Below, in pieces: positions 1 through 15,552 of a stretch of DNA of 64,000 bases. The notes under the pieces are model-generated. The model had not been told where the DNA came from and searched no databases. It saw nothing but the letters and a program-made list of their open reading frames with translations. The position numbers and the translations under genes were made by a program. The stretch is from Streptomyces sp. NBC_00442. Its GTDB lineage: Bacteria; Actinomycetota; Actinomycetes; Streptomycetales; Streptomycetaceae. The stretch lies in contig NZ_CP107918.1 of the NCBI RefSeq assembly GCF_036014195.1, forward strand, positions 6,758,001-6,822,000, written 5' to 3'. How positions within the stretch are numbered: position 1 is the stretch's first letter; each line of letters starts with the position of its first letter.

Positions 1-206
1 GGCCCAGGGCGGGGCGATGGCAGGAAGGACTCCCAGTCCCGCCACCCCTCGCGGTACGCCCGGCGCGCAACGGTCCACTGGATCAGCGCGTACTGCGTCT
101 CGGCGGCGTCCTCGGGATCACGCACCCACCAGTCGTCGAGGCTGAACACGTCCAGCGGGGGCGGGTATTCGTCACCGGCCGGCGCACGGACACGGCGCCG
201 GCTCAT
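1..206 (-). CDS. Hypothetical element protein, N-terminal part (runs off left edge)
   Basis: The gene starts with ATG at 206-204, overlapping the stop of the preceding gene in an ATGA junction, and is open to the left edge. About 68 residues are visible, beginning MSRRRVRAPAGDEYPPPLDV and rich in Trp, Tyr and Asp further on, with a DWWVRDPEDAAETQYA stretch. I do not recognise the family. It is the next gene after a P27-like small terminase in the leftward operon, so a packaging or DNA-processing role is conceivable but not shown. Confidence 0.6.
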   Translation of the reverse strand, partial: MSRRRVRAPAGDEYPPPLDVFSLDDWWVRDPEDAAETQYALIQWTVARRAYREGWRDWESFLPSPRPG

Positions 207-568
207 GCCGACCCCCGCCACCGGATCACGGCCGCATGCCGCGCGTGCGCCGAACGCGCCTGCGCGTCATGCCGCTCCTGGCCCTCTTCGTCCGGCAGCT
301 TCAGCGCGGCCAACAGACGGGACACCAGCGAGCGGTGCTGACGCAGCTCCTGCACCAGAGGACTGGCCACCGGCTGCCCCTGCGACCCGGTCACGACCAG
401 AGGGGCATCCCGCAGCGCCTCCTCCATCCGCTCGATGAGGTCGACTTCCCGGCATGCGTCGCCGAGGACACGCAGCTCATCGGCGCGCAGCTCGAACGCT
501 CCGGCGATCTCCTCCCAGAGGCATGAGCCCTGCGACCCGAGGCCCGCCGGCGGTTGGTTCAGAGCCAT
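203..568 (-). CDS. P27-like phage terminase small subunit homologue
   Basis: This is a 121-residue protein if it starts at ATG 568. A GTG one codon upstream is possible, but the AAAGGGGG ribosome site is better spaced for the ATG. It opens with a PPAGLG-type segment and carries a helical middle with a VVTGSQGQPVASPL motif. The GSxGQPxxxP signature is typical of P27-family (Terminase_4) small terminase subunits, which recognise phage or satellite DNA and present it to the large subunit. The length fits the family. No large terminase gene lies next to it on the visible side. A lone small terminase is a known hallmark of phage satellites. Assignment is by motif recognition only. Confidence 0.65.
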   Translation of the reverse strand: MALNQPPAGLGSQGSCLWEEIAGAFELRADELRVLGDACREVDLIERMEEALRDAPLVVTGSQGQPVASPLVQELRQHRSLVSRLLAALKLPDEEGQERHDAQARSAHARHAAVIRWRGSA

Positions 569-688
569 CACGGCCCCCTTTCATGATCAGGAAAAACACA
601 GCGAAGTCAGCACGCAGAAACTGGGGTGCTATACGGCCCCGATCCCTTAAAGATCATGATCATGGTTAATCCCCCAGGTGATCATGGT

Positions 689-725
689 GTCCCAAACGAT
701 CATCATTTCGGTGATCGTTTGGGAC
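689..725. terminator. Perfect 14-bp stem-loop in a 259-base gap
   Basis: GTCCCAAACGATCA at 689-702 is exactly complementary to TGATCGTTTGGGAC at 712-725, with a 9-base loop. It lies just past the stop of the leftward gene ending at 828 and before the small-terminase gene. No U-rich tract follows on either strand. Several GATCAT motifs crowd the same stretch (about 652-705), including the palindrome GATCATGATC. It may be a terminator, an RNA-processing hairpin or a protein-binding site. The rest of the 569-827 gap shows no gene. Confidence 0.6.
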
Positions 726-827
726 GTCGGCGCTGGTGACGGCTGAGAAAGGCCTGAGGTCCGTCACCATCGGTCCGATGCTCGTCATGCCCAACAAGAT
801 CAGTGCCGTTGACGCCGAGTTCATGGG

Positions 828-1643
828 TCACGCAGCCAGCACTCGCCTGACCTGCTCGGCCGCGCCTGCACGGCTGAGGGCCGCCGCGGCGGCATGGGTG
901 GCGTTACGCCATGCCTCCACCGCGCCGGCCCGCTGCCTCACCTCACCTGGCGTGGCGAGCCCGAGCGTGAGGTCCGGTTGCCGTGCGAGGTACACCCAGC
1001 GGGCCACGTGCTGGTGCCTGAGCTCCCGCCATCCGGACACGACCTGTGCCAGCCGCGGCCACTGCCTGTCGAGTACGGCGTCGGCCGTCGGCTCGGGCAG
1101 GGTGGCCACGGCGAACAGCGCGTTGTCCCGGCCGCCGTCTCCGCCTGCTGCTGCGACGATGTCGGCTCGGTCGGCGACGAGCTGGTCCAGCTGGACCGCG
1201 ATGCCTTCGGCCCGCTGGTAGGGGGCCGTGACTGCGGGGTTGTTCCACGGGATGCGAGCGGGGTCGAGCTCGTCGGGCAGCTTGGCCGCCGCCTTGGCCA
1301 GCGCCGCGGTGAGGGTGGCGAACTCCTTTTGCAGGCCACCGATCCAGGCGGGCACGGCGTCGAAAACGGCCTGCGCGTACAGGAGGCGGGCGTCTTCGTT
1401 GAAGCGCCCGGCGGCCCGCCGCGTGAGGTCGGCGGCCTGAAGGTCGAGGGCGTACTGCTGGACGGTTGCGGCGACGTCTGCGGCCGTGGCGGGCACGGGC
1501 GGGCGCTCGGGGTCGGGGGCGCGCATTGCGGCGTTCACGGCGGCGTCTACGGCCGCGGCCTCGCGCACAGTGGCGGGGATGTCGAGGCCGCGGCGTTCGG
1601 CTGCACGGACCGCCTTCTCTGCGGCGTTCACGTTGAGGATCAT
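828..1643 (-). CDS. Hypothetical helical element protein (271 aa)
   Basis: The start ATG at 1643 overlaps the stop of the upstream gene (ATGA). The 271-residue product is Ala-rich and predicted to be almost wholly helical, with a central segment containing WIGGLQKEFATLTAALAKAA and a later WRELRHQHVARWVYLA segment. There is no signal peptide or membrane segment. I do not recognise a family. Its position between a replication module and a small terminase leaves open a structural or capsid-redirecting role as in known satellites, but nothing in the sequence shows that. Confidence 0.7.
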   Translation of the reverse strand: MILNVNAAEKAVRAAERRGLDIPATVREAAAVDAAVNAAMRAPDPERPPVPATAADVAATVQQYALDLQAADLTRRAAGRFNEDARLLYAQAVFDAVPAWIGGLQKEFATLTAALAKAAAKLPDELDPARIPWNNPAVTAPYQRAEGIAVQLDQLVADRADIVAAAGGDGGRDNALFAVATLPEPTADAVLDRQWPRLAQVVSGWRELRHQHVARWVYLARQPDLTLGLATPGEVRQRAGAVEAWRNATHAAAAALSRAGAAEQVRRVLAA

Positions 1644-2215
1644 GCGGATTCCATCTCCTGCTGGGCGAGCCGGGAGATCTCGGCGTCGGATGTGGAGCTG
1701 AGGACGGACGGGGTCGGCGCCATGAACTGGCCTGCGTGGCGGAACTCAAACAGCGGGTCGCCGGTGCCGGGCAGGTCGTTGTACTCCTGAACGGCTTCGG
1801 CGAACGTGGGGCGACTGGCGGCGTAGGCGTCGATGACGGGCGTCCAGTCGAACTGTGCGGCGCGCGCGGCGATGGCCTGGGCGAGGACGTCGTCACCGGA
1901 GAGTTCGGCGGCCGCGAGGGCGTCGGTGGCGGCGCGCGGGTCGTCGAGGCGGGCGGCCCGGTCGACGGCGTCACGACGGACGGCGATCGCGTTGGGGTCG
2001 GTGGCGCCGGTGTTGCCGAACATCTTCCTCTGGAGCTTGGCGCGCTGCGCTTCCACCTGGCCGAGCTCGGCCTGGCGCTGCGCTTCGAGGTCGCTCTGCG
2101 CCTGCTTGTACGCCTTGGCGGCCATGACGCGCTTCGCGTGGTCGCTGTACGTCTTGTTGTTCTCGATGCGGGCGAGCTTGGACTGGTAGGCGTCGTGGAT
2201 CTGCTGGGCGTTCAT
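1640..2215 (-). CDS. Hypothetical coiled-coil element protein (191 aa)
   Basis: The 191-residue reading begins MNAQQIHDAYQSKLARIE, and its start overlaps the stop of the next gene upstream. Residues about 10-65 are rich in Lys, Glu, Gln and Arg and look like a long coiled coil. The C-terminal half contains an FDWTPVIDAYAASRPTF segment and ends in a flexible Ser-rich tail. Longer upstream reading is possible in this frame, but it would overlap two other genes and is highly Arg-rich in a way typical of a wrong frame. The function is unknown. Scaffold-like coiled coils are common near packaging genes, but this is only an analogy. Confidence 0.7.
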   Translation of the reverse strand: MNAQQIHDAYQSKLARIENNKTYSDHAKRVMAAKAYKQAQSDLEAQRQAELGQVEAQRAKLQRKMFGNTGATDPNAIAVRRDAVDRAARLDDPRAATDALAAAELSGDDVLAQAIAARAAQFDWTPVIDAYAASRPTFAEAVQEYNDLPGTGDPLFEFRHAGQFMAPTPSVLSSTSDAEISRLAQQEMESA

Positions 2216-2454
2216 CGGGGGGTCCCTTCTGCTGTGTCGGCGGCGGCGAGCGCCTGAAGATTGGTGATCATGTCGAGGACGGTTTCGGCGGGTAGGGCGA
2301 GGCGGACGGCTTCGGCGAGAGCGAGCGCGGTCCCTTCGGCGACGTGTGCGAGCTCGACGGGGTTGAGGCCGTCGAGGAGTGCGCGGATGTCGGCCGGCTC
2401 GTCTCGTAGGGCGGCGACCATCACGCCGTAGCTGGTGAGGAACGGGTCGGTCAC
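2212..2454 (-). CDS. Small hypothetical element protein (80 aa)
   Basis: This 80-residue acidic protein starts with GTG at 2454, overlapping the stop of the 51-residue gene upstream, and ends overlapping the next gene. It begins MTDPFLTSYGVMVAALRDEP and contains two amphipathic helices with a NPVELAHVAEG segment. No family is recognised. It is one link in the overlapping leftward chain, so it is probably translated by coupling with its neighbours. Confidence 0.6.
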   Translation of the reverse strand: MTDPFLTSYGVMVAALRDEPADIRALLDGLNPVELAHVAEGTALALAEAVRLALPAETVLDMITNLQALAAADTAEGTPR

Positions 2455-2606
2455 GGCTGCTCCTTCTGTCGGGCGAGCTTGGCGGCGTGCCTCGCGGCAA
2501 CCCCGGGCCGGCGAGCGGCGGCCAGCTCGGCCCGCTGGCGCTTCGCGCGCTCGATACGGGCACGCGCCGCGGCTATCCGCTCGGCCACGATGTCGTTGAC
2601 GTTCAT
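2451..2606 (-). CDS. Very small basic hypothetical protein (51 aa)
   Basis: A short reading frame starts with ATG at 2606, five bases after the stop of the upstream gene, and its stop overlaps the GTG of the next gene. The protein begins MNVNDIVAERIAAARARIER and is dominated by Ala, Arg and Lys in one long helix, suggesting a nucleic-acid-binding or adaptor peptide. The tight fit between two neighbours on both sides is the main support that it is a real gene. The function is unknown. Confidence 0.5.
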   Translation of the reverse strand: MNVNDIVAERIAAARARIERAKRQRAELAAARRPGVAARHAAKLARQKEQP

Positions 2607-2611
2607 GCACA

Positions 2612-3376
2612 TCACACCGCGATGAAGAGCTGGGGGAGTTGGGCGAGGGCGGCGCGGACGAGTCGGTGACGCTGCCGTCGGGTCGCTTCCTCGATGGCCA
2701 GGAGGCTGACATCTTCCGTGAGTTCGTCAAGCGTCCGGCCGTAGCCGTCGACCTGCTCCTGAAGCTGGGCGAGGGCCGTGCGGTAGCGTTCGCTGCCTTC
2801 CGCGCTCTCCGCGCTCCGAAGCTGGAAGTCCGGAGCAGGGCTCTTCGTGGCGAGCGCTCGATAGTGCCGAATCCTCATCGTGGTGGCTGCGACCTCCACC
2901 GCGGCCGGGCTGGGCTCGTCGACGAAGGAGACTCCGGTCGGCAAGTGCGTCCGCCTGTGAGGCTCGACGAAGCACGGGTACGCCTGATCTCCGTTCCTCC
3001 GCTGCAACGGACACTCCCGGTCGGTCGACTGCGGGTCGGTAGCCCAGGACAGGATTTGCGCGTTGAGCAACTGGTCCGACTCGGCCCCGCTCAGTGGGGT
3101 CCATCGCGGCTCATGGAGGACGCGGCTGCGCCGGAGCTCGCCGCCGTCCTGCCAGACGATGTGCCAGTGCGGCGGCGAGTCGCTGCACCGGTCCGGGTGG
3201 TAGTTGACGTAGCCCCAGGGGACGCCGTTCAGGGTTCCATCACTACTGATGAGGGATTCCTCGCGCAGCTGCCGGAAGACGGACAGGGTTACCTGCTTGC
3301 CGCTGATCGTGAGGGCCTGTACCTCAACGGCGACTGTGGTGATCGACGCGTTCTGGGTTGTGAGCTGCTTGGGCAT
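2612..3376 (-). CDS. Hypothetical protein of actinobacterial mobile elements (254 aa)
   Basis: I chose ATG 3376 because AGGAG sits a few bases upstream and because the longer upstream reading would only translate the GGGACAGGT repeat cluster. The product begins MPKQLTTQNASITTVAVEVQ, has a beta-rich N-terminal half with a GVPWGYVNYH segment, and ends in a coiled-coil-like region (about residues 185-235) with a Leu-rich tail. It is the first gene after the repeat cluster that follows the helicase gene. I recognise it only as a type seen with replication genes of Streptomyces integrative elements. No biochemical function can be stated. Confidence 0.75.
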   Translation of the reverse strand: MPKQLTTQNASITTVAVEVQALTISGKQVTLSVFRQLREESLISSDGTLNGVPWGYVNYHPDRCSDSPPHWHIVWQDGGELRRSRVLHEPRWTPLSGAESDQLLNAQILSWATDPQSTDRECPLQRRNGDQAYPCFVEPHRRTHLPTGVSFVDEPSPAAVEVAATTMRIRHYRALATKSPAPDFQLRSAESAEGSERYRTALAQLQEQVDGYGRTLDELTEDVSLLAIEEATRRQRHRLVRAALAQLPQLFIAV

Positions 3377-3450
3377 GGTGACTCCTGGTCTGTGGTCGCT
3401 GTCGTCAAAAGCGGCAGCAACAAGGGGCGAGTGGGTTTCCGGGGCCGGGG

Positions 3451-3655
3451 CTGTCCCACCTGTCCCCTCCCTAAAGGAGGAGGGGGGAGGGGACAGGTGT
3501 GCCGACGTGCCCTGTCCCCGACCTGTCCCAGACCTGTCCGGGACAGGTCTGACCTGCGGTTTCTCGGAAACCTGTCCCGCCGTTGGGGACAGGTGAGATG
3601 TCCTATTCATGCTGTCCCGTCCCCTCGGGGTCCGGGGACAGGTTTGGGGACAGGT
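3451..3655. repeat. Cluster of about a dozen GGGACAGGT / ACCTGTCCC repeats (iteron-like; candidate origin)
   Basis: Within 205 bases, ACCTGTCC-type units occur in both orientations, for example at 3458-3467, 3491-3498, 3521-3529, 3532-3540, 3541-3548, 3570-3578, 3586-3594, 3634-3643 and 3646-3655. Two form strong dyads: AGACCTGTCC and its exact complement at 3530-3550 around one base, and ACCTGTCCC/GGGACAGGT at 3570-3594. The cluster begins inside the last codons of the helicase gene and fills the gap before the next gene. Iterons beside a RepA-like helicase suggest a replication origin. An operator array for an element-encoded regulator is the alternative. Confidence 0.8.
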
Positions 3656-4736
3656 GATTTGCCCGGTTCCTCCGGTACTCGATGACGTCCTTCAGGAGGT
3701 CGTTGCGAGCTTGGATGCCGAGTGCCGCGCACTTGTGGCGAACTCGTTCGCGGCCCCAGTCGACGGGCACGTTCTCGGCGTCGAGGGCGGCGGCGATCTC
3801 CTCGATGCGCCCTTGGTGCCCGGTGCGTGCCTGGGGCTGCGCGACGGGGTCGAGCGGCACCAGTACGACGGACGTGAGCGGACTCCCGTCTTCCTTGGCC
3901 TCACCGTTCAGGGCGACTTGGTGCAAGCCGAAGACGACGTCGCCGAGTTCCTCGTCGTCCTTCTGCTTGCCGGTCTTGAGGGTGATCGTCGTGTCGAGCA
4001 GGCCGCTCCCCTTGCGCTCGACCCCCAGCTCGGTTTGGAGTGCACCCTTCACCGCGGTGGCGCCTCGGCCGCGGTCGCCGTCGTGGCCGGTGTGGTGGAC
4101 GAGCAGGACACACGCACCGGACGTGCCGCGCAGCTGCTCCATGCGGTCGACGACCCGGCCCATCTCTGTGTTGGAGTTTTCTTCGATGCCGACCGTTACC
4201 CGGGCCTGGGTGTCGATGACGACGAGTGCGGGTCGCCGCCGACGGCACAGCTCGACGAGCACGAGCCATTCGGGGTCCATGGCCTGCACGGGCCGAGGCA
4301 GGAAGAAGACGCCCGTCATGCGGCACCCATGGTGTTGCTCCCAGGCGCGGACCCGCTTGCGGATGCCTCTCATGCCTTCGGCTACGAGGTAGATGACCGG
4401 GCCCTGGGTGACGTCCTGTCCGTGCCAGGCCATCCCGGTTCCGACGCAGCCGGCGAAGTCGAGCGTCATGAACGACTTGAAGGTGCCGGATGCGCCGTAC
4501 ACGCGGGCGAGGGTGTCCCTGTACAGGACGTCGGTGATGACCGGTTCGAGCGGCTCGATGTCGTCGAGCGCCGCCGAGTCGAGCAGTTCGGCTTCCAGGG
4601 CTTCGACCCGGTTAGCGAGGTGCTGTTCGGATGTGACGCCCACGGTGCGCGGACCGGTCGGCTCTGCCGGGAAGTCTGCCCACAGGTCGTCCTCGGGCGG
4701 CACCTCCCGGAGGTAGACGACGGCCGGATCGTTCAC
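3603..4736 (-). CDS. RepA-like AAA/RecA-fold ATPase (hexameric helicase family)
   Basis: This 377-residue protein starts with GTG, overlapping its neighbour. A Walker A motif, GASGTFKS, lies near residue 81, a Walker B strand, ALVVIDT, near residue 168, and a LLVHHTGHDGDRGRGATA motif near residues 210-228. This pattern matches the RecA-fold ATPases related to RSF1010 RepA and DnaB-like helicases that unwind element or plasmid origins. The C-terminal third looks like a separate DNA-binding segment. The last codons of the gene are themselves built from the GGGACAGGT repeat, giving the repeated peptide LSP. The likely role is replication of the excised element from the adjacent repeat cluster. 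An ATPase with another role cannot be excluded. Confidence 0.8.
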   Translation of the reverse strand: MNDPAVVYLREVPPEDDLWADFPAEPTGPRTVGVTSEQHLANRVEALEAELLDSAALDDIEPLEPVITDVLYRDTLARVYGASGTFKSFMTLDFAGCVGTGMAWHGQDVTQGPVIYLVAEGMRGIRKRVRAWEQHHGCRMTGVFFLPRPVQAMDPEWLVLVELCRRRRPALVVIDTQARVTVGIEENSNTEMGRVVDRMEQLRGTSGACVLLVHHTGHDGDRGRGATAVKGALQTELGVERKGSGLLDTTITLKTGKQKDDEELGDVVFGLHQVALNGEAKEDGSPLTSVVLVPLDPVAQPQARTGHQGRIEEIAAALDAENVPVDWGRERVRHKCAALGIQARNDLLKDVIEYRRNRANHLSPNLSPDPEGTGQHE

Positions 4737-5146
4737 GCCGCCTCCTTTCGGGCCTCATGCCGGTTGCGGGTGACGATGTCGGCGTGGGCCTGGTCGAGTT
4801 CGGCGAGGCTGGGCCGCTGCCAGATCGGTGGGTGGGGGCGCAGGGCGTCGTCGAGTTCGGCGGTGATGTCGAGGTGGTACTTGCGCCAGTTCTCAGCGAA
4901 GGCCATGACGCCGGCGAGCTTCATGGGGTCCTCGGGGTCGAGGGCCCGCCACTCGGGGGTGGCGTACTCGGGGTAGTCGCCGTGCAGGTACCGGCGCTTG
5001 GCGGCGGCCCAGTAGTCGCGGACGGCGGCGACCTGTTCCGTCTCGGCCCCGGTCTGCGTTACGGTGGCAGCGGACTTACCGCCCGCTGCGGAGTCTTTCG
5101 GAGAGGGGCCGGAGTCGAGCCGGCCCCTCTTTGCGTTCCGGTTCAT
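4733..5146 (-). CDS. Hypothetical element protein upstream of the helicase (137 aa)
   Basis: The protein begins MNRNAKRGRLDSGPSPKD and has a low-complexity basic N-terminus followed by a helical core with WAAAKRRYLHGDYPEYATPEW and a WRKYHLDITAELDD segment. The start overlaps the stop of the upstream HTH gene and the stop overlaps the helicase GTG. No other in-frame ATG or GTG start is available further in, so the first about 15 codons must be used although they contain a perfect hairpin (5102-5130). It may be a replication accessory protein by position. No family is recognised. Confidence 0.7.
   Translation of the reverse strand: MNRNAKRGRLDSGPSPKDSAAGGKSAATVTQTGAETEQVAAVRDYWAAAKRRYLHGDYPEYATPEWRALDPEDPMKLAGVMAFAENWRKYHLDITAELDDALRPHPPIWQRPSLAELDQAHADIVTRNRHEARKEAA
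5102..5130. terminator. Perfect 11-bp hairpin inside the start of a coding region
   Basis: AGAGGGGCCGG at 5102-5112 pairs exactly with CCGGCCCCTCT at 5120-5130 around a 7-base loop. On the plus strand it is followed by TT only. On the minus strand (the coding direction of the gene here) no U-run follows. It lies within the first codons of the gene at 4733-5146, a position where it could attenuate transcription or translation of the replication genes downstream. Confidence 0.5.
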
Positions 5147-5361
5147 GCTGCGGCCCTCTCCTCTCCAGAGAGAATCCGCACCAGGTCGGCGGTAATTACG
5201 ACGTGGCGGGCCCCGAACGGGATTGTCTTGACAGGGGAGTCGCCCCGCTTGATGCGCTCGTGCAGGTGGCTCTTACTGCAACCGAGCGCCTGCGCGGCCT
5301 GGCTGACACTGACGGTCGCGGGCCACTTGCGGACGTCGCCGAGGGTGGGCTGCTCACTCAC
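5143..5361 (-). CDS. Small HTH DNA-binding protein, excisionase/MerR-like (72 aa)
   Basis: This 72-residue protein starts with GTG at 5361. Residues about 15-40 (TVSVSQAAQALGCSKSHLHE) form a helix-turn-helix of the excisionase/MerR type, followed by RIKRGDSPVKTIPFGARHVV, the wing that usually contacts DNA. Such proteins direct integrase towards excision or act as regulators of the element. It sits directly downstream of a second HTH protein, with a 4-base overlap. Which of the two is the true excisionase cannot be told from sequence. Confidence 0.75.
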   Translation of the reverse strand: MSEQPTLGDVRKWPATVSVSQAAQALGCSKSHLHERIKRGDSPVKTIPFGARHVVITADLVRILSGEERAAA

Positions 5362-5564
5362 GCCGCCCTCCTGGGGGTGATGGTGCAGTCGCTGAGGAAC
5401 TGTTCGATGTCACTTCGCCGGTAGAAGACGCGGCCCCCACGCCCCTTGCCGGTCTTGATGTAAGCGGGGCCTTCACCGCGCCACCGGCGCTCTGCTAGCG
5501 CGGCGGCTGTGCCGAGCACGGGGTACTCGTCGGCCACCTGCTTCGGGGGCAGGAACTCCTCCAT
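5358..5564 (-). CDS. Excisionase-like HTH protein (68 aa), first gene of the leftward operon
   Basis: The protein begins MEEFLPPKQVADEYPVLGTA and continues with a WRGEGPAYIKTGKGRGGRVFY stretch, the pattern of HTH_17/excisionase proteins in Streptomyces elements: the short helix-turn-helix is followed by a basic wing and an RRSDIEQFL helix. It is the promoter-proximal gene of the leftward operon and is divergent from the XRE regulator. The gap between them holds a palindrome that overlaps the rightward promoter. A likely job is assisting excision when the repressor is relieved. Confidence 0.75.
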   Translation of the reverse strand: MEEFLPPKQVADEYPVLGTAAALAERRWRGEGPAYIKTGKGRGGRVFYRRSDIEQFLSDCTITPRRAA

Positions 5565-5593
5565 GCCTCTTAGCTCCCTTCTGGGATCACACG

Positions 5594-5623
5594 TTGCTTA
5601 GTAGGACCATCTAGTCCTACAAT
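5594..5623 (+). promoter_or_regulatory. Sigma-70-type promoter of the XRE gene
   Basis: TTGCTT at 5594-5599 and TACAAT at 5618-5623 are separated by 18 bases, a good match to a housekeeping promoter. Transcription would begin about 5630, practically at the ATG at 5631, so the message may be leaderless. The -10 element overlaps the right arm of the palindrome at 5601-5620. Confidence 0.65.
5601..5620. promoter_or_regulatory. Palindromic operator between XRE gene and leftward operon
   Basis: GTAGGAC at 5601-5607 and GTCCTAC at 5614-5620 are exact inverted repeats separated by six bases. The site lies between the -35 and -10 elements of the rightward promoter and 37 bases before the first leftward gene. 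This is the expected place for binding by the XRE repressor encoded immediately to the right, giving autoregulation and control of the excision/replication operon. Binding is inferred. Confidence 0.65.
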
Positions 5624-5630
5624 GCACCAC

Positions 5631-6254
5631 ATGGAGACTGTAGCACCCACCACGAACCGCACAAGGCCGAGACTGTTGCATACGCTGTTGCCCATGGCAG
5701 AGCAGCAGCGCGGACGACGCGCCATCGAAGTTGGCCCCACTGGTCAGACGGTCGCAGCGAACATCGCTCGACTGCGTGAGCGCCGAGGGCTGACCACCCG
5801 ACAGCTGTCCGCCACATTGGAACGAGCGGGGCGGGCCATCCCGGCTTCGGGGATCACTCGCATGGAGAAGGCGGAGCGCGTCGTCACAGCTGACGAGCTA
5901 GTCGCCTTGGCTGCTGCCTTCGGTGTCTCGCCATCTGCGCTGCTCCTTCCGCTCTCATCCCGGGCGGTAGACCAGATCGAGGTCACCGGCGGGGGGACCG
6001 TGTCAGCTGACACGGCATGGGCGTGGGCGGACGGCGAACGCCCCCTTCACCTCTCGGAGGGCAACGAGCGAAAGGAGCTGGTCGAGCATGAGCTGTTCGG
6101 TCGCCCGCAGTGGCTGTACAAGCGCAGCCCTGAACACCTGAAGGCCAAGCGCGAACTCTTCGAGCGCATGGCGGAATGGGGGGCCGTCGACTTGGACGTC
6201 GTCAAGGGCCTAGACCCCGCCCCCTGGCAGCACAAGAAGCCAAGCGATGGCTGA
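5631..6254 (+). CDS. XRE-family transcriptional regulator, candidate master repressor of the element
   Basis: From ATG 5631 the product has 207 residues. An internal ATG at 5694 (MAEQQRGRRAIEV) is an alternative but lacks a ribosome site, while 5631 coincides with the predicted transcription start. A Cro/C1-type helix-turn-helix spans roughly residues 47-97 (TVAANIARLRERRGLTTRQL onward). The C-terminal half has no recognised domain and contains a Trp-rich segment (TAWAWADGERPLHLSEG). Its last bases overlap the integrase start. By position it should repress the divergent excision/replication operon through the palindrome at 5601-5620. Confidence 0.8.
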   Translation: METVAPTTNRTRPRLLHTLLPMAEQQRGRRAIEVGPTGQTVAANIARLRERRGLTTRQLSATLERAGRAIPASGITRMEKAERVVTADELVALAAAFGVSPSALLLPLSSRAVDQIEVTGGGTVSADTAWAWADGERPLHLSEGNERKELVEHELFGRPQWLYKRSPEHLKAKRELFERMAEWGAVDLDVVKGLDPAPWQHKKPSDG

Positions 6255-7434
6255 GCCGAAGCGGATCGTCCTGCGGGATGGCAAGGTCCGCTACCGGGTG
6301 GTCGTCGACGCGGGCCAGGATGAGAACGGCAAGCGCGTCCAGCTGACGATTACGCGGGACACGAAGACGGCGGCCAAGGATGAGCGGGACCGGATCCTGC
6401 ATCAGCGGGCCGCTGGCACGTTCATCGCCCCCAGCAAGATCACGTTGGGTGAGTGGCTGGAGCAGTGGCTGGAGTACAAGCGGCGCGACGTCGAAGAGAC
6501 GACGATCCGCACCTACCGCCTGGCCCTGGTCCACGTCTTTGATCGGCTCGGCCACATCCGGTTGCAGGAGCTGACCGAGGACCACATTCAGGACTTCCTT
6601 GATGAGGTCGTCGCCACCGGTCGGCGCCGCGGCGGTGAGCCTGGTACGCGCCTCGCGGTGTCCACGGTCGAGGGCATCCTGACCCGCCTGCGGGAAGCCT
6701 TGGGGCGGGCGGTGGTCCGCAAGCTGATCGCCACCAGCCCGGCGCAGTACGTGCGGGTCGCGCTCGTCGACAAGAAGACCGACAAGCGGGAGCGGGCCAA
6801 AGTCAAGCCGTGGGCGGTGGACGAGGTGCAGACGTTCGTCCGCGGCATGGAGGGTGACCGGCTGTACGCCCCACTGTTGTTGTCCTTGATGGGTCTGCGG
6901 CCGGCTGAGGTCTGCGGCCAACGGTGGACCGATGTGAATCTGGTCGACGGGGTCCTGGGCATCACCACTACCAGGACGATGGTTGGCAACCACAAGGTCT
7001 TGGAGAAGGACACCAAGACGGCATCCGGGGAAAGGGCCTTGCCCTTGCCGCGCGGGCCCTGGGAGGCGCTGCGGGACTTCCGTGACCGGCAGGCCAATGA
7101 GCGGGAGCTCGCGGGGGAGGCGTATACCGTGACGGGCTACGTTCTCGTCGATGAGCTGGGGATGCCCATCAACACGCGGCAGCTGCGGGAGTACGCCTAT
7201 CAGCTCATGGCTCATCTGGGTCTACGGCGGGTCCGGCTGTACGACGCTCGGCACTCCGTCCTTAAGGCGCTGGCGCTGAGCGGTGTCCCCGATGTGGTCC
7301 TCGCGGCGTGGGCGGGCCACACGAACGCCGGTTTCACGAAGCGGAAGTACGTGTCCATCGAAGCTGAGGACATGAGGGGCGCGGCCGTGGCCCTCGATGC
7401 CTTCCATGGCGGTAGCCAAAAAGCCCTCGCGTGA
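6247..7434 (+). CDS. int: Tyrosine site-specific recombinase (integrase)
   Basis: This is a 395-residue phage-type integrase. The N-terminal arm-binding part has VRYRVVVDAGQDENGKR, a core-binding SAM-like domain runs to about residue 170, and the catalytic domain carries Arg in MGLRPAEVCGQRW, Arg in LYDARHSV, His in WAGHTN and nucleophile Tyr in TKRKYVSIE. The usual first His of box II (HxxR) is Tyr here, a variation that occurs in some actinobacterial integrases. It overlaps the XRE gene by eight bases, so the two are probably cotranscribed and integration is maintained while the repressor is made. Confidence 0.95.
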   Translation: MAEPKRIVLRDGKVRYRVVVDAGQDENGKRVQLTITRDTKTAAKDERDRILHQRAAGTFIAPSKITLGEWLEQWLEYKRRDVEETTIRTYRLALVHVFDRLGHIRLQELTEDHIQDFLDEVVATGRRRGGEPGTRLAVSTVEGILTRLREALGRAVVRKLIATSPAQYVRVALVDKKTDKRERAKVKPWAVDEVQTFVRGMEGDRLYAPLLLSLMGLRPAEVCGQRWTDVNLVDGVLGITTTRTMVGNHKVLEKDTKTASGERALPLPRGPWEALRDFRDRQANERELAGEAYTVTGYVLVDELGMPINTRQLREYAYQLMAHLGLRRVRLYDARHSVLKALALSGVPDVVLAAWAGHTNAGFTKRKYVSIEAEDMRGAAVALDAFHGGSQKALA

Positions 7435-7453
7435 GAAAATGTGAGATTTTCTC
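7433..7453. terminator. AT-rich hairpin directly after the integrase stop
   Basis: GAGAAAAT at 7433-7440 and ATTTTCTC at 7446-7453 form a perfect 8-bp stem with a 5-base loop. It begins inside the integrase stop codon. It may end the integrase transcript, although no poly-U tract follows, or may be an arm site of the attachment region. It is strikingly AT-rich for this genome. Confidence 0.5.
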
Positions 7454-7470
7454 GGTCATCAGCACGGCTA

Positions 7471-7522
7471 AATCTCCACTGACCTGCGCATTAGTCTTTC
7501 AGCGTAGAACAGTGGACAGATT
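7471..7522. other. Candidate attachment-region inverted repeat at the element edge
   Basis: AATCTCCACTG at 7471-7481 and CAGTGGACAGATT at 7510-7522 are inverted repeats with a two-base insertion in one arm. They lie in a low-GC stretch between the integrase and the chromosomal peptide deformylase gene, where an attachment site is expected. No tRNA gene is present here. The core direct repeat cannot be identified because the other end of the element is outside the window. Confidence 0.35.
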
Positions 7523-7570
7523 CTACTGGCGATTTCTGCAGGCCAGCGCCCCACCCCTATTTGTCGCTTG

Positions 7571-8203
7571 CTACGAGAGTTCGAAGCCCAGTGCCTCGGC
7601 GGCCGCGGCGGGCGTGGGCTGGTTCCAGCGCTCGGACATCGCCTCGCGCGAGGAGAGCGAACGCGGCTCGGCTCGGTCCAGATACAACGTGCCGTTCACA
7701 TGGTCGGTCTCGTGCTGCACGATCCGGGCGGGCCAGCCGGTGAACACCTCGTCCAGGGCGCGGCCGTGCTCGTCGAGCGCGCGCAGGCGTACGGTCTCGT
7801 GCCGGGCGACCACCGCGCCCCAGCCGGGCACGCTCAGACAGCCCTCGAAGAACGCGGCCCGGCCGGATCCGACGGGCTCGTACGACGGATTGACCAGGAC
7901 GCGGAACGGCTGCGGGACACGGCCGCGGACGAGCCTGACCTCCTCGGACACCTCCGCCGCGTCCTCGATGACGGCGAGTCGCAGCGGCAGGCCCACCTGC
8001 GGTGCGGCGAGGCCGACCCCTGGTGCGGCGTGCATCGTCGCGCGCATCGCCTCGATCAGGCGGGCGAGCCGCGCCCGGTCGAGACGGTCGTCCACCGGCT
8101 CGGCGGGCCGCCGCAGCACGGGGTCTCCGGCCGAGACGATCGGGAGGACGCCGGGGGCGGAGAGGAGTTCGTCGACAAGGTCGTTGAGCGCGGGGGACGG
8201 CAT
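7571..8203 (-). CDS. def: Peptide deformylase
   Basis: This 210-residue enzyme removes the formyl group from the N-terminal Met of new proteins. All three family motifs are present: GVGLAAPQVG near residue 68, EGCLSVPGW near residue 130, and QHETDHVNG near residue 170, supplying the Cys and two His metal ligands and the catalytic Glu. I prefer ATG 8203. A GTG at 8242 would add 13 residues with no homologous look. It is convergent with the integrase, and its intact 3' end abuts the element edge. A second deformylase gene lies at 40793. Confidence 0.93.
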   Translation of the reverse strand: MPSPALNDLVDELLSAPGVLPIVSAGDPVLRRPAEPVDDRLDRARLARLIEAMRATMHAAPGVGLAAPQVGLPLRLAVIEDAAEVSEEVRLVRGRVPQPFRVLVNPSYEPVGSGRAAFFEGCLSVPGWGAVVARHETVRLRALDEHGRALDEVFTGWPARIVQHETDHVNGTLYLDRAEPRSLSSREAMSERWNQPTPAAAAEALGFELS

Positions 8204-8281
8204 GGGGACAGCATGCCAAGAACGATCACCAGGCGCGGGCACCGGGGTGCTCCTCCCACGAAACGTGCCCCGTCCACCTCG

Positions 8282-8385
8282 TGCGGAAGGACTTCCAGGA
8301 GGTGCGAATCGACTTCCCCTGCATGCGGACGACTTCCCCTACATGTACATGCGGAACGACTTCCACTCCGTGCGCAACAGCGTCC
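8282..8385. repeat. Five imperfect 21-base repeats (TGCGGAACGACTTCC-type)
   Basis: Copies begin at 8282, 8303, 8324, 8350 and 8371 and share TGCGGA.CGACTTCC. Spacing is 21, 21, 26 and 21 bases, i.e. about two helical turns. The array lies in the 374-base gap between the divergent deformylase and GNAT genes. It could be an array of binding sites for one regulator. Alternatively it is decayed coding sequence, since a 7-residue period of the type (M/V)R(N/K)DF appears across a frameshift. No longer gene is seen in this gap. Confidence 0.6.
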
Positions 8386-8510
8386 GCGGCGCGTGCGGAG
8401 CGGGGCGGTTCTCCGGTAGGGGCGGGCCAGCGGAATGGCCCCGGGAATGCTCAGCGCCTCGCGGAACTTTCCCTGGGGGGAGTCCCGGCGGAGCCTGTGC
8501 AGGGCGCGCG

Positions 8511-8568
8511 CCCGGGATGCCACACCGCCGGTTCCGAACCCCGGGATGCCACACCGCCCGCACCGAAC
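8511..8568. repeat. 29-base tandem direct repeat before GNAT gene
   Basis: CCCGGGATGCCACACCGCC occurs at 8511-8529 and 8540-8558, each followed by a related CCGAAC-ending segment, giving a 29-base unit repeated twice. It ends ten bases before the GAGGAG ribosome site of the next gene, so it belongs to that gene's leader or promoter. Confidence 0.6.
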
Positions 8569-8577
8569 GAGGAGATC

Positions 8578-9300
8578 ATGCACAACGCGTCCGTCCGCAC
8601 CGAGAGCCCGGCGCACCCGCTGGACAACCCCGCGTACGCCTCGCTGACCGGGCCGCACGCCCGGTTCGCCGAACGGCGGGGCAGGGTGCTGCGGTACCGG
8701 ACCGATGTATCGCCCTGGCTCGGGCTGCCCGCGGAACCGGACGCCGCCGACTGGGCGGACCTGGCGGCGCTCGCCGGCCCCGGCACGGAAGTGGAACTCC
8801 CCGGGGTCCGTGCCCCGCTGCCCGAGGGCTGGGAGGTCACCTTCGACCTGGCGGGCGTCCAGCTCGTCGGAGAGGCGGTGCGGGCCCGGCCCGACGAGGA
8901 GGCAGTCCTGCTCGGCGCCGCCGATGTTCCCGACATGCTGGCGCTCGTGGAGCGCACCCGGCCGGGGCCGTTCCTGCCCCGCACCGTGGAGCTCGGCACC
9001 TACCTGGGCATCCGGCGCGACGGGCGGCTGATCGCGATGGCGGGCGAACGCCTGCATCCGCCGGGGTGGACCGAGATCAGCGCCGTCTGCACCGACGACG
9101 CCTTCCGCGGGCAGGGCCTCGGCTCCCGTCTGGTCCGTGCGGTCGCCGCTGGCATCGCGGAGCGTGGCGAGACGCCGTTCCTGCACACCGCCGCCGGCAA
9201 CACCGGCGCGATCAGGTTGTACGAGTCCCTGGGCTTCCGGCACCGACGCACGACACGGTTCGTGGCCGCACGCGTGCCGGAACCGAGCCCGGCCCGCTGA
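8578..9300 (+). CDS. GNAT-family N-acetyltransferase (FR47-like)
   Basis: The 240-residue protein begins at ATG 8578 behind GAGGAG. The upstream continuation of the frame is repeat sequence and was not used. The acetyl-CoA binding motif, FRGQGLGSRLV, lies near residue 180, and the conserved NTGAIRLYESLGF stretch lies near residue 209. The N-terminal 100 residues resemble a degenerate second GNAT fold. The substrate cannot be named. It is divergent from peptide deformylase, and the 21-base repeat array lies between them. Confidence 0.85.
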   Translation: MHNASVRTESPAHPLDNPAYASLTGPHARFAERRGRVLRYRTDVSPWLGLPAEPDAADWADLAALAGPGTEVELPGVRAPLPEGWEVTFDLAGVQLVGEAVRARPDEEAVLLGAADVPDMLALVERTRPGPFLPRTVELGTYLGIRRDGRLIAMAGERLHPPGWTEISAVCTDDAFRGQGLGSRLVRAVAAGIAERGETPFLHTAAGNTGAIRLYESLGFRHRRTTRFVAARVPEPSPAR

Positions 9301-9367: not shown

Positions 9368-10201
9368 TCAGTCCTCGACCCGGCTCCAGTCGTGCACCGG
9401 GCCGGCCGAGCCCTCCGTCGGAGTGACCCAGAACGCCCGGCCCTGCGCGGCGCTGAAGTGGGCCCCGCTGCGGCCGTCGCCGGAGGAGCGCCCGGTGAGC
9501 CGGCGCCCTATCCACGGCACCAGGTGTTCCCGCGCGAAGCGCAGGTCGGCGCCGCGGCTCGCGATCCATCGGGGCCGGACGGCCGGGGGCAGGGCCGCGC
9601 GCCAGTCGTCCTCGGCGTCGAGGCCCAGGGTCTGCCAGACCGCTTCGGCCACCCTGCGGTGCCCCTCCGCCGTCAGGTGCAGCCGGTCGACGTCCCACAT
9701 CCGCTGATCGCCAAGGACCGGGGCGCCGTACAGGTCGACGACCAACGCGCCGTGGCGCTCGGCGAGTTCGTCGACGTGTGCGAAGAGTTCTTCCATGCGC
9801 GGACGGAAGCGTTCCTGGACGGGACCGTTGCGGGCCGGACTGCGCATCAGTACCAGCTGCTTGCACGCGGGTGCGAGCTGTTCCACCGCGTCCGTCAGGA
9901 GGGCGCGCACCCGGCCCATGTCGCACTTGGGGCGCAGGGTGTCGTTCAGGCCGCCGACCAGGGTGATGACATCCGGGCGCAGTGCCACCCCAGCGGGCAC
10001 CTGCTCCTCGACGATCTGCCCGATGAGCTTGCCGCGCACGGCGAGGTTGGCGTAGCGGAAGCCGGGTGTGCGGGCCGCGAGACGCGCGGCGAGCAGGTCG
10101 GCCCAGCCGCGGTAGGTCCCGTCGGGAAGCCGGTCGGACATGCCCTCCGTGAAGGAGTCCCCGAGCGCGGCAAAGCTGGTGTATGAGGCATTCATCTCCA
10201 T
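9368..10201 (-). CDS. SGNH/GDSL-family hydrolase
   Basis: The product (277 residues from ATG 10201; ATG 10195 is equally possible) shows block I FAALGDSFTEGM with the nucleophile Ser, block III VGGLNDTLRP with Gly and Asn, and block V DVDRLHLTAEGH with the Asp and His of the triad. The Ser-Gly-Asn-His set is therefore complete. No signal peptide is seen, so it is probably a cytoplasmic esterase or lipase-like enzyme of unknown substrate. It is divergent from the orphan holin gene. Confidence 0.88.
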   Translation of the reverse strand: MEMNASYTSFAALGDSFTEGMSDRLPDGTYRGWADLLAARLAARTPGFRYANLAVRGKLIGQIVEEQVPAGVALRPDVITLVGGLNDTLRPKCDMGRVRALLTDAVEQLAPACKQLVLMRSPARNGPVQERFRPRMEELFAHVDELAERHGALVVDLYGAPVLGDQRMWDVDRLHLTAEGHRRVAEAVWQTLGLDAEDDWRAALPPAVRPRWIASRGADLRFAREHLVPWIGRRLTGRSSGDGRSGAHFSAAQGRAFWVTPTEGSAGPVHDWSRVED

Positions 10202-10462
10202 GGCGCTGTGATCGTACCGCGCGGTAGCCAAGACCGGCGGGGGCGGTGGAAGCCCCCGGCGATGCCGCCCGAACCGATGGCGGGCACCGAGCCGCACCGG
10301 GTCGGTACGCGCTCGCACGCGCCTGCGCGCCCCCCAGCCCGGATTTCGGAGCGCACCGATCTCGACGGCCCCCTGTCCGGGGAAGCCGTTCCGCGGTATG
10401 CCGGGTACACCTCAAGTTTTCGGGCCCCGGCCGGGTCGGCCGTGCGAGAGAGCGAGCGTGCG

Positions 10463-10729: not shown

Positions 10730-11745
10730 GCCGCGGCCGGAGGCCCCACCAGTTCCCGCAGCACGTCCTCCATCGTGACCAGGCCGGCCAGCTTGCCGTC
10801 CTCGCCGAGCGCCGCCGCCAGATGTGTACGGCTGCGGCGCATCGCTGTCAGGACGTCGTCCAGCGGCGTCGCGGCGCGCACCCGGGCGATCGGACGCAGC
10901 GCGGCGACCGGGAAGGCCACGTCGCGCGGCGAGGCGTCGAGGGCGTCCTTGACGTGGAGATAGCCCAGGATGCGGCTGCCGTCGTCGACGACCGGGAAGC
11001 GGGAGTACCCGGAACTCGCGGCGAGCCGCTCCAGCTCCGCGGGTGTGGTGCCGACCGCGGCCCGCACCACCTTGTCCAGCGGAACCACCACGTCCCGCAC
11101 CGGGCGGCGCCCCAGTTCCAGCGCGTCGCGCAGCCGGCCGGCCGCGCGGTCGTCGAGCAGTCCCGCGGCGCCCGCGTCGGTCACGAGACGGGCCAGCTCG
11201 TCGTCCGAGAAGGTCGCGGCGACCTCGCTCTTGGCCTCCACCTTGAGAAGTTTCAAGATGGCGTTGGCGAAGGCGTTGATCGCGAAGATCGCCGGACGTA
11301 GCGCCCTGGCCAGCGTCACGAGCGGCGGCCCGAGCAGCAGCGCGGTGCGGGCCGGCTCGGCGAGCGCCACGTTCTTGGGCACCATCTCGCCGAGCAGCAT
11401 GTGCAGATACGTCGCGATCGCCAGGGCGAGCACGAAGGAGACCGGGTGGATGAGACCGGTCGGCACGCCCACGGCGTCGAAGACGGGCTCGACCAGGTGC
11501 GCGATGGCCGGTTCGGCGACCACACCGAGCACCAGGGTGCACAGGGTGATGCCGAGCTGGGCCGCCGCCATCAGGGCCGAGACGTGTTCCAGGCCCCAAA
11601 TGACGCTGCGCGCGCGGCGGTTGCCGTCCTCGGCGAGCGGTTCGATCTGGCTGCGGCGCACCGAGATCAGCGCGAACTCGGCTCCCACGAAGAAGGCGTT
11701 GACGACCAGGGTGGCCAGGCCGATGAGAATCTGGATCGCGGTCAT
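10726..11745 (-). CDS. CNNM/CorC-family membrane protein (hemolysin-like), second of pair
   Basis: This 339-residue protein has an N-terminal DUF21 (CNNM) domain with four hydrophobic segments (about residues 5-25, 55-80, 95-125, 135-155), including the conserved LGEMVPKNVAL, followed by two CBS domains. It lacks the C-terminal CorC domain present in its neighbour. Family members are linked to divalent cation (Mg2+/Co2+) export. It overlaps the upstream paralogue by four bases, so the two probably form a hetero-complex. Confidence 0.88.
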   Translation of the reverse strand: MTAIQILIGLATLVVNAFFVGAEFALISVRRSQIEPLAEDGNRRARSVIWGLEHVSALMAAAQLGITLCTLVLGVVAEPAIAHLVEPVFDAVGVPTGLIHPVSFVLALAIATYLHMLLGEMVPKNVALAEPARTALLLGPPLVTLARALRPAIFAINAFANAILKLLKVEAKSEVAATFSDDELARLVTDAGAAGLLDDRAAGRLRDALELGRRPVRDVVVPLDKVVRAAVGTTPAELERLAASSGYSRFPVVDDGSRILGYLHVKDALDASPRDVAFPVAALRPIARVRAATPLDDVLTAMRRSRTHLAAALGEDGKLAGLVTMEDVLRELVGPPAAA

Positions 11746-13079
11746 CGGGCGGCCTCCTCGTCCTCGTCATCGGTGTGCAGCGGCGCGTGCAGCAGGACGC
11801 GTGCCGCGCGCCGGCCGGTCGCGTCGACCACGTCCATGCGCCAGCCCGCCAGTTCCACACGGTCGCCGAGTTTCGGAATCCGGCCGAGTTCGGTCGCGAC
11901 GAGGCCGGCGAGGGTTTCGTACGGGCCGTCCGGGACGCGCAGTCCGATGGTGGCGAGCTGGTCGTCGCGGGCGGCGCCGTCCGCGGAGTACAGGGTGCGG
12001 CCGTCGGCGTCCTGTCCCGCGGGGGCGAGGTCGGGGGTCTCGTGCGGATCGTGCTCGTCGCGGACCTCGCCGACGACCTCCTCCACGATGTCCTCAAGGG
12101 TCACGACCCCCGCGGTGCCGCCGTACTCGTCGATGACGACGGCCATGGTCCGCTTGCCGTAGAGCTGGTCCAGGAGTCGGTCCACGGTGAGCGTCTCGGG
12201 GACGAGCAGCGGCTCGCGCAGCAGAGCGGACACCGGATGCAGGCGCCGGCGCTCGGCGGGGACGGCCAGGACGTCCTTGATGTGGGCTATGCCCACGATC
12301 GAGTCGAGGCTGCCCCGGTAGACGGGGAAGCGGGACAGGCCGGTGGCGCGGGTGGCGTTGGCGACGTCCTCCGCGGTGGCCTGGATGTCGAGCGCGGTGA
12401 CCTGCACGCGCGGGGTCATCACGTTCTCGGCGTTGAGCTCGGCGAGGTTGAGGGTGCGGACGAACAGTTCGGCGGTGTCCGCTTCGAGGGCGCCCTCCTT
12501 GGCCGAGTGCCGGGCCAGGGCGACCAGCTCCTGCGGGCTGCGGGCGGAGGCCAGCTCCTCGGCGGGTTCCAGGCCGAACCGGCGCACCAGATGGTTGGCC
12601 GAGGTGTTGAGGTGGCTGATCAGCGGCCGGAAGGCGGCGCTGAACGCGCGCTGCGGGGCCGAGACGACCTTGGCGACGGCCAGCGGCGAGGAGATGGCCC
12701 AGTTCTTGGGGACGAGCTCGCCGACGACCATCAGGAACACCGTGGAGATCACCATGCCGAGCACGAGGGCCACCGAGCTCGCGGCCGACGCGGACAGGCC
12801 GACCGATTCCAGCGGCCCGGTGAGGAGCTTGGCGATCGACGGTTTGGCGATCATGCCGATGACGAGCCCGGTGACGGTGATGCCGAGCTGGGCGCCGGAC
12901 AACTGGAAGGTGAGGCTTCGTACGGCCTTGAGGGCGCTCGCGGCCCCGCGTTCGCCGCGCTCGACGGCGCGTTCCAGATCGCTGCGCTCGGCGGTCGTGA
13001 GGGAGAACTCGGCCGCCACGAAGACCGCGCACACCAGCGAGAGCAGCACGGCCGCGAGGAGCAGGAGCACTTCGGTCAT
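11742..13079 (-). CDS. CNNM/CorC-family membrane protein with CBS pair and CorC_HlyC domain
   Basis: The 445-residue protein starts with ATG at 13079 behind a strong GGAGG site. It contains the DUF21 membrane domain with VGELVPKNWAISSP, two CBS domains (about residues 205-330) ending VVIDEYGGTAGVVTLEDI, a motif typical of the family, and a C-terminal CorC_HlyC domain. The likely role is Mg2+ or Co2+ homeostasis at the membrane. It is cotranscribed with the shorter paralogue downstream. Confidence 0.9.
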   Translation of the reverse strand: MTEVLLLLAAVLLSLVCAVFVAAEFSLTTAERSDLERAVERGERGAASALKAVRSLTFQLSGAQLGITVTGLVIGMIAKPSIAKLLTGPLESVGLSASAASSVALVLGMVISTVFLMVVGELVPKNWAISSPLAVAKVVSAPQRAFSAAFRPLISHLNTSANHLVRRFGLEPAEELASARSPQELVALARHSAKEGALEADTAELFVRTLNLAELNAENVMTPRVQVTALDIQATAEDVANATRATGLSRFPVYRGSLDSIVGIAHIKDVLAVPAERRRLHPVSALLREPLLVPETLTVDRLLDQLYGKRTMAVVIDEYGGTAGVVTLEDIVEEVVGEVRDEHDPHETPDLAPAGQDADGRTLYSADGAARDDQLATIGLRVPDGPYETLAGLVATELGRIPKLGDRVELAGWRMDVVDATGRRAARVLLHAPLHTDDEDEEAAR

Positions 13080-13254
13080 CGGGTCACCTCCGTCCCATGA
13101 TCGGCCAGGCGGAGGCGGTGCGCGCGGTGTCGCGCGGCGGTACGGGTACGGGGAGGCTCGCCCATGGGCGGACGCTCACACCTTTCGTTCGGTGAATCCG
13201 GTGGCTCGAAGTCCATCCATGGTAAAGCACTGGCAAAAATGTGGGTGTGGTCGC

Positions 13255-13677
13255 TCAGCCCAGGGGCTTCACCCAGCGCCGCCAGTGTTCCTGCGGCTCG
13301 TACCCCGCCGCCGCCCAGGCATGCCGCGCGAGCTCGTTGCGGACCAGCACCATGGCGTCCGCCCGGCGCCCGCCCAGTGCGACGAAACGGGCCTCGGCCG
13401 CCGACAGGAGCGCGCCGCCGATGCCTCTGCGGCGGTGATCGGGATGGACGGCGAGACGGTAGAGATGACAGCGCCACCCGTCGAACCCCGCGATCACCGT
13501 GCCGACCGGGCCCCCGCCCTCCTCCGCCAGGATCAACGCATCGGGGTCGCGGGCGACGAGGGCCTCGATGCCCGCCCGGTCGTCACTGATGCTGGTGCCC
13601 TCGGCGGCGACCTTCCAGAAGGCCAGCACCGCGTCCAGATCACCGGGCCCCGCGGCCCGGATACGCAGATCGTCCAT
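13255..13677 (-). CDS. GNAT-family N-acetyltransferase
   Basis: This 140-residue single-domain acetyltransferase has the acetyl-CoA loop HPDHRRRGIGGALLSAAE near residues 78-95 and ends with WAAAGYEPQEHWRRWVKPLG, typical of this fold. The N-terminus MDDLRIRAAGPGDLDAVLAF matches the usual GNAT opening. The substrate is unknown. It stands alone between the CNNM pair and a methyltransferase gene on the same strand. Confidence 0.88.
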   Translation of the reverse strand: MDDLRIRAAGPGDLDAVLAFWKVAAEGTSISDDRAGIEALVARDPDALILAEEGGGPVGTVIAGFDGWRCHLYRLAVHPDHRRRGIGGALLSAAEARFVALGGRRADAMVLVRNELARHAWAAAGYEPQEHWRRWVKPLG

Positions 13678-15551: not shown

Positions 15552-15552
15552 C

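Follow-up and report, generated by a model that had tools for sequence, protein, structure and literature searches.

What kind of mobile element occupies the left end of the stretch analyzed here, and what would it take from a phage? The stretch, hereafter the window, comprises 64,000 nucleotides of the chromosome of Streptomyces sp. NBC_00442 (positions 6,758,001 to 6,822,000 of a 7.73-Mb single-contig genome; coordinates given without a locus name refer to the window). A first-pass annotation, made from the letters alone, had described its left end as a satellite resembling the phage-inducible chromosomal islands (PICIs), with a lone terminase small subunit (TerS) and a helper actinophage to exploit. 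We put at roughly two in three the probability that this is a cos-type satellite in integrated form, exploiting a siphophage family of which a 61-kb prophage in the same chromosome is a representative; it would combine cos mimicry with chimeric tails. Judged by its sequence, the element has its own integrase, regulator and replication ATPase, a TerS beside a copy of a packaging-site-like stretch of the helper family, and a tape measure protein (TMP) homologous to that of the helper.

Ends of the element and its unoccupied site

The element spans genome positions 6,748,602 to 6,765,520 (16.9 kb; 16,910 bp from repeat to repeat) and extends 9.4 kb leftwards past the window edge. Both of its ends consist of the 9-mer GTGGACAGA, in direct repeat: the attR core lies at 7512 to 7520 (no strand assigned), 3' of the integrase gene, and the other att copy (10402 to 10410 of locus L004) precedes a purB-like gene, at a distance of 9.4 kb from the left edge of the window. 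The right end, which had been placed at 7570, is thereby moved to the att core, and the second attachment site expected to the left was there. In the purB loci of 12 relatives (L047 to L058), compared for an empty site, the purB flank is joined directly to the sequence right of 7520 in five cases (blastn; L047, L048, L050, L052 and L057), and the empty-site junction of L048 (genome G004) has 32 identical bases around the core. These alignments show a precise insertion at a site that is unoccupied in relatives. Before the purB boundary and the empty site of the relatives were used, direct-repeat searches 20 and 100 kb leftwards had returned chance matches only, and a search of the genome itself with the right flank gave no convincing second copy.

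The deformylase gene at 7571 to 8242 was considered as the integration target and dropped, as the relatives' match stops at about 7578 and resumes at about 9,380 to 9,470 without that gene. Directly right of attR, positions 7571 to 9300 hold peptide-deformylase-like and GNAT-like genes (named by eye); in 8 of the 12 relatives the region of the SGNH-like gene lies close to purB, mostly without room for these two. This suggests that the deformylase/GNAT-like stretch is a separate insertion or an old remnant.

Among 392 genomes sampled from the genus, a profile of the 191-residue protein p191, used as family marker, identified such elements in 12, counting the present one, at 13 loci: the window's element (W), L031, L033, L034 and L145 to L153. 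Across the order, the profile matched in 10 of 391 genomes, all of them in the same genus.

A packaging-site-like stretch shared with the resident prophage

The TerS gene of the element (203 to 571, minus strand) had been proposed from the translation, and its homology is clear by profile search (phrog_1496, "terminase small subunit," E value of 9.3e-24), with a further match to PF05119 below the family cutoff (E value of 1.7e-3) and, by tblastn, matches in 67 phage records. TerS and TMP are the only virion-assembly-related genes recognized in the element: tblastn with the proteins of the resident prophage and of phage Samy found no portal, capsid, major tail or large terminase homologue in it. 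Furthermore, neither an FtsK/Tra gene nor a complete structural module, either of which would have spoken against a satellite, was found in the element, and the nearest PF01580 match in the genome lies at 4.74 Mb, 2 Mb off.

The 61-kb prophage is bounded by a 47-bp repeat, whose copies lie 61.2 kb apart, and its profile matches comprise large terminase, portal, major head, scaffold, major tail, tail chaperone, endolysin and integrase; it also harbors the second TMP gene of the genome, at 5.456 to 5.461 Mb. Its TerS matches PF25673 (E value of 1.6e-43), and PHROG names the family minor tail protein. As a side observation, two proteins matched by phrog_226, a family named "minor tail protein," are terminase small subunits according to Pfam, and the PHROG name is probably a mislabel.

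DNA matches between the element and the prophage below an E value of 1e-9 are limited to the TMP gene and a 62-bp stretch, the remaining listed matches being 57 to 80% identical at E values of 4e-7 or weaker. The 62-bp stretch is 90% identical and lies upstream of TerS in both; in the window it forms a cos/pac-like site at 625 to 686 (no strand assigned), with the core GGGCCGTATAGCACC on the minus strand and the pattern match at 622 to 639. A scan of viral contigs with the pattern GGTGCTATACGGCCC returned 56 stretches. In 41 of the 56 contigs a TerS of the prophage type lies downstream of the core in the same orientation (+93 to +881), and these 41 contigs contain a large terminase in 40 cases and a portal in 31. 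Three further contigs have the longer motif ATCGGGGCCGTATAGCACCTGACC but less than 0.9 kb of sequence beyond it, and 12 of the 56 have neither this motif nor a TerS downstream.

The core is likewise found upstream of TerS in three resident prophages (genomes G000, G257 and G318). Beside the TerS of the satellites, it is exact in W, L033, L145, L147 and L150, carries one change in L034 and appears diverged by eye in L148, L152 and L153, whereas in L031 it is cut by the contig end, the L146 stretch being cut as well. A second copy of the core, differing at no more than one position, lies in a resident prophage in 3 of the 12 element-bearing genomes. When as many as two mismatches were allowed, 9 matches were obtained in 6 genomes, against 5 in 4 for a reversed control, so that two-mismatch matches alone mean little. 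From its position, we infer that the shared stretch corresponds to a cos region.

The tape measure gene and its exchange

The TMP gene lies left of the window, after TerS and the small protein p79, and encodes 1,392 residues (phrog_4197, E value of 1e-156; SLT domain, E value of 3.5e-6). Since it lies there, the description of TerS as lone is true of the window only. The encoded protein is 179 residues shorter than that of the resident prophage (1,571 residues). Reading back from the stop codon, the two genes show 2 mismatches in 18 bases, then 1,085 identical bases and then an abrupt divergence; the next-longest exact match between element and prophage has 24 bases. From residue 1100 onwards the codons are essentially identical DNA, and before residue 953 the identity is 65 to 75%. 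A 1,085-bp identical tract beside sequence of about 65% identity points to a recent exchange between the satellite and prophage lineages, in either direction.

Trees were built from 5 satellite and 20 phage TMPs, at full length and without the exchanged tract, with 200 bootstrap trees. The phage rows were 16 of the 80 loci retrieved with the element TMP as query, together with Samy and three prophages, the cut locus L160 being excluded; among the 80 loci, L154 to L187 were checked for neighboring genes. The full-length tree places the element TMP beside that of the resident prophage. A pairing by descent was considered and dropped, as it vanishes in the tree without the exchanged tract. The satellite TMPs stand on a single branch in none of the 200 bootstrap trees, with or without the tract, which suggests more than one uptake or exchange of the gene. 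The starred branches force four changes in the full-length tree and one in the trimmed tree, and the branch of the L151 TMP is very long, its placement being unsure. The satellites likely took up or recombined TMP repeatedly, the number of events being uncertain.

Between the TMPs of L033 and L145, the ratio of nonsynonymous to synonymous substitution rates (dN/dS) is 0.10 to 0.13 over the first 760 residues (dS of 0.38 to 0.50) and 0.44 at the C terminus. The low values indicate that TMP has been kept under selection.

Variation among the related elements

The gene order of the window's element was found in part in other genomes of the genus. In L033, from another genome and another site, the same gene set and order occur at 36 to 57% identity, and this holds partly for other loci. 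TMP is present in five of the 13 loci (W, L033, L145, L151 and L153) and absent in six (L034, L147, L148, L149, L150 and L152); L031 and L146 end at contig ends, and their TMP status is undecided. Exact end repeats of 43 bp in L145, 43 bp in L033 and 29 bp in L034, and a repeat of 17/18 bp in L148, delimit elements of about 15 to 16 kb, and no convincing end repeat was found in the stretch searched for L147, L149, L150, L151, L152 and L153. At an E value of 1e-4, none of the 13 loci (2 of them cut) matched the portal, capsid or major tail proteins of either the prophage or Samy.

An FtsK domain scores above the Pfam cutoff in L146, L148, L152 and L153 (FtsK/SpoIIIE-type genes at 3281 to 5437, 4851 to 7049, 3056 to 5185 and 13575 to 15689 of the respective loci) and below the cutoff in L149 and L151; in L033, L034, L145, L147 and L150, inspection of the called genes in the stretch covered, of which a part was profile-scanned, revealed no FtsK-like gene. 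In particular, the FtsK gene and TerS of L148 are enclosed by the same end repeats. It follows from the FtsK-like genes of some relatives that the family is not purely PICI-like, and it is possible that the FtsK-bearing members are hybrid elements of conjugation and phage type.

Other loci depart from the window's arrangement in their phage-type genes. L149 has, at 11539 to 13651, a TerS of the helper family and a large terminase in place of the window-type TerS and TMP. L148 encodes a protein resembling the prophage gene in first-chaperone position (tblastn E value of 2.7e-9; phmmer E value of 7.5e-14, one target), for which no profile match was obtained. L151 carries a different TerS (PF05119) and a short match to a tail-region protein of the prophage. 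In L153, whose integrase is of the serine type, no TerS was seen, and an HNH gene (PF01844; 8165 to 8875) stands between p271 and TMP at the place expected for TerS, beside the diverged core.

The integrase of L147, L151 and L152 adjoins the end of a glutamine synthetase gene, recognized by PF00120 in L151 and by eye in the other two; the far ends of these three elements were not found. The contig of L031 (G114:C219:36954) stops inside the packaging-site core, and L146, the other element in that genome, breaks off shortly after p191; these contig ends are possibly assembly breaks at repeats.

How the element may spread

In the reading that we favor, the element would excise and replicate once a helper is active; its TerS would then bring the large terminase of the helper to the shared site, and the element DNA would be packaged into helper-made heads. 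The element TMP would replace that of the helper in part of the tails, giving chimeric tails of the kind for which the Vibrio PLE satellites offer a precedent. Tape measure proteins set tail length at a scale of 0.15 nm per residue, so that a TMP shorter by 179 residues would give tails about 27 nm shorter than those of the helper. The C-terminal end of a TMP is thought to meet the tail tip, and the identical C-terminal tract would keep this end compatible with the helper.

The helper-exploiting satellite proposed at first is well supported in its general form by the ends and the empty site, the shared stretch, the gene set recurring in 12 genomes and the lack of head genes, but the picture modeled on the Staphylococcus aureus pathogenicity islands (SaPIs) misses the tail side. 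Several observations count against our reading. The TerS proteins of element and prophage show no recognizable relatedness and belong to different families, and the flanks of the site are almost as similar to two viral contigs as to the prophage (scores of 50, 49 and 48). A TerS of the satellite type precedes the large terminase in the G073 prophage (L032), where the core was not found, and also in phage Mendokysei; hence, the preferred partner of the element TerS, whose binding to the site is an assumption, may be a different large terminase. The core is not visible in L149 and L151. As for the tail, outside the exchanged tract the element TMP is 55% identical to that of the resident and up to 58.5% to those of other phages; among the five satellite TMPs, only that of the window's element falls below the length range of the 20 phage TMPs compared, and the remaining four lie within it; and TMP, given its distribution over the loci, is not essential to the family.

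The optional TMP would also suit an explanation in which TerS, the packaging site and TMP act against the phage, poisoning tail assembly and packaging as a defense, with transfer achieved otherwise, for example by FtsK-type conjugation. The L148 protein resembling the first-chaperone-position gene, carried instead of TMP, and the FtsK-like genes of several relatives are in line with it, and interference with tail assembly by satellites and prophages is known (PMC11364771). We nevertheless regard this explanation as unlikely: the window's element has no FtsK gene, a copy of the packaging site beside its own TerS would be of no clear use to a pure blocker, and no PADLOC family was found among 9 element proteins scanned (TerS and TMP lay outside that scan).

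The large recent recombination tract, together with L034, L147 and L150, which have TerS and the same site and lack TMP, would fit a SaPI-like satellite that relies on TerS alone, with TMP as inert cargo acquired by recombination with the helper. This appears improbable, since the TMP gene of the window's element is intact and those of L033 and L145 have evolved under constraint, and since the bootstrap trees give the satellite TMPs no single origin, which speaks for repeated uptake or exchange. Least probable of all is a decayed prophage, for although TMP and TerS are phage genes and a deletion from large terminase through tail chaperones would leave the one following the other, the ends and the site are intact, the gene set and order recur in L033 at a different site and partly elsewhere, p79, p191 and p271 have no match in 50,697 phage records, and none of the 13 loci, two of which are cut by contig ends, retains portal, capsid or major tail homologues or the intervening structural genes.

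Beyond the satellite with chimeric tails, a wider picture can be offered tentatively, as a possibility that falls short of the probable. The loci might form a distinct Streptomyces family with two arms of spreading, namely, conjugation of the FtsK/DUF2637 type in some members and packaging by TerS and the copied site, the latter extended by repeated capture or recombination of helper TMPs for chimeric tails. The member in the window would then have shed conjugation and become a pure tail and terminase pirate of the resident prophage.

Gene content of the element

The genes named from the translations (integrase, XRE-type regulator, Xis-like proteins, RepA-like helicase and TerS) proved real by profile, the Xis-like proteins being weak and below cutoff. 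The tyrosine integrase (6247 to 7434, plus strand; PF00589, E value of 8e-14; phrog_1, E value of 2e-51) is 79% identical to that of L031 and 75% to that of L149; both of these adjoin an SGNH-hydrolase-like gene of the same kind as that right of the window's element (gene named by eye). The XRE-type regulator (5622 to 6254, plus strand; PF13560, E value of 5.5e-8; 57% in L033) is divergent from the operon, which on the minus strand begins with two Xis/HTH_17-like proteins at 5358 to 5564 (56% in L033) and 5143 to 5361 (72% to an L149 protein), followed by p137 (4733 to 5146), conserved in the family at 39 to 46% to its homologues in L033, L145, L149 and L151, and by a replicative ATPase of the AAA_25/RepA type (3603 to 4736; PF13481, E value of 1.7e-35; phrog_906, E value of 9.6e-53).

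The iteron-like repeats seen at first inspection hold up as nine copies of ACCTGTCC, in both orientations, at 3458 to 3655 (no strand assigned), a candidate origin: the motif occurs 10 times in the window, against 2.3 expected by shuffling, and nine copies are packed in about 200 bp, two of them inside the end of the ATPase gene. The next gene on the minus strand, p254 (2612 to 3376), leaves the repeats outside if it starts at 3376, and a start at 3610 would give 332 amino acids. It is followed on that strand by p51, a small basic protein (2451 to 2606; an open reading frame), and by p80, a small conserved protein without Pfam family (2212 to 2454; 50% to L033 8644 to 8859).

The family marker p191 (1640 to 2215, minus strand; 81 protein clusters) and p271 (828 to 1643, minus strand; 101 homologous protein clusters, the named ones mostly of Streptomyces) are both all-helical in confident structure models (predicted local distance difference test [pLDDT] scores of 89.2 and 94.9, respectively), for which no significant fold match was obtained, and neither has a Pfam or PHROG family (best E values of about 0.1 or worse). 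Their proposed role in capsid redirection is possible but unsupported, with no family or fold in its favor. The small conserved protein p79 (79 amino acids; 1 to 221, minus strand, reaching 19 bases past the left window edge), between TerS and the TMP gene, has homologues after TerS in L033, L145 and L034 and was not recognized as a tail chaperone.

Beyond TMP, a terminator-like hairpin (by eye) is followed by a convergent operon with two DUF6907 proteins, a 262-residue protein without Pfam family, a GntR regulator and proteins of no assigned function. The 262-residue protein resembles, by eye, proteins adjoining the FtsK genes in the relatives.

Comparison with known satellites

Satellites with TMP genes are already known, namely, the PLEs and some capsid-forming PICIs (PMC12987554). 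According to the same source, the PLEs of Vibrio cholerae use helper heads and place their own TMP in hybrid tails; the PLE and helper TMPs are 95 residues apart and PLE tails 10 nm shorter, and deletion of the PLE tmp lowers transduction by 96 to 99.9%. The window's element resembles them, as compared by description and not by sequence, in carrying a TMP. Different from it, the PLEs also carry a tail chaperone and parasitize the phage ICP1 (PMC12987554), whereas the TMP studied here stands beside TerS and a packaging site, and its candidate helper is an integrated siphophage. Putative tmp genes also occur in some capsid-forming PICIs, which make their own heads, with capsid, portal, protease and both terminase subunits (PMC12987554, legend of Extended Data Fig. 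10, for the tmp genes), while the window's element has no head genes.

With the SaPIs and other PICIs, as outlined in PMC10690885, the element shares the integrase, divergent regulator, replication gene, own TerS, lack of capsid genes and size class of about 15 kb; it differs from them in its TMP, in the helper packaging-site sequence beside TerS, in p191 and p271, which have no known family, and in having no recognized capsid-redirecting gene. MulchRoom and MiniFlayer are likewise satellites of Streptomyces phages, MulchRoom with a tyrosine integrase, but by the same account (PMC10690885) they encode TerS, large terminase, portal, capsid and scaffold and are without primase-like genes, whereas the window's element has a replication ATPase and no head genes.

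Among Mycolicibacterium records of 11 kb, JSForest1, JSForest2 and Maddie1 hold a TerS homologue (43% over 71% of the query). JSForest2 (OR387116.1, 1 to 11036) is, like the window's element, a small integrase-bearing genome with a TMP gene, but it has capsid, scaffold and head-tail genes and a serine integrase. Its annotation lists a TerS-like terminase, capsid, scaffold, TMP and integrase and no large terminase, portal or major tail, which suggests a satellite that was filed as a phage; JSForest1 and Maddie1 are of similar size with the same TerS match.

Actinomycete integrative and conjugative elements (AICEs) carry a DNA translocase of the FtsK/TraB type. The FtsK- and DUF2637-type genes of the relatives, and the DUF6907 and GntR genes in the left operon of the window's element, recall them; different from AICEs, the window's element is without FtsK and has TerS, a packaging site and TMP.

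The chimeric tails of PLEs were reported in 2026, and the authors describe their benefits as still to be deciphered (PMC12987554). The element described here offers a candidate for an independent instance from another phylum; its likely helper is integrated in the same genome, and a packaging-site match is visible. A natural recombination tract marks the part of TMP that is identical to the helper's, and the reason for TMP genes in satellites could be sought here in a tractable kind of soil bacterium. Moreover, the FtsK-bearing relatives raise the question of whether one family moves both by conjugation and in phage particles. As far as our literature searches show, the features that set this system apart from those known are the Streptomyces family itself, a TMP that stands together with TerS and a copied site, a tract recently exchanged with a candidate helper in the same chromosome, and relatives that bear FtsK genes.

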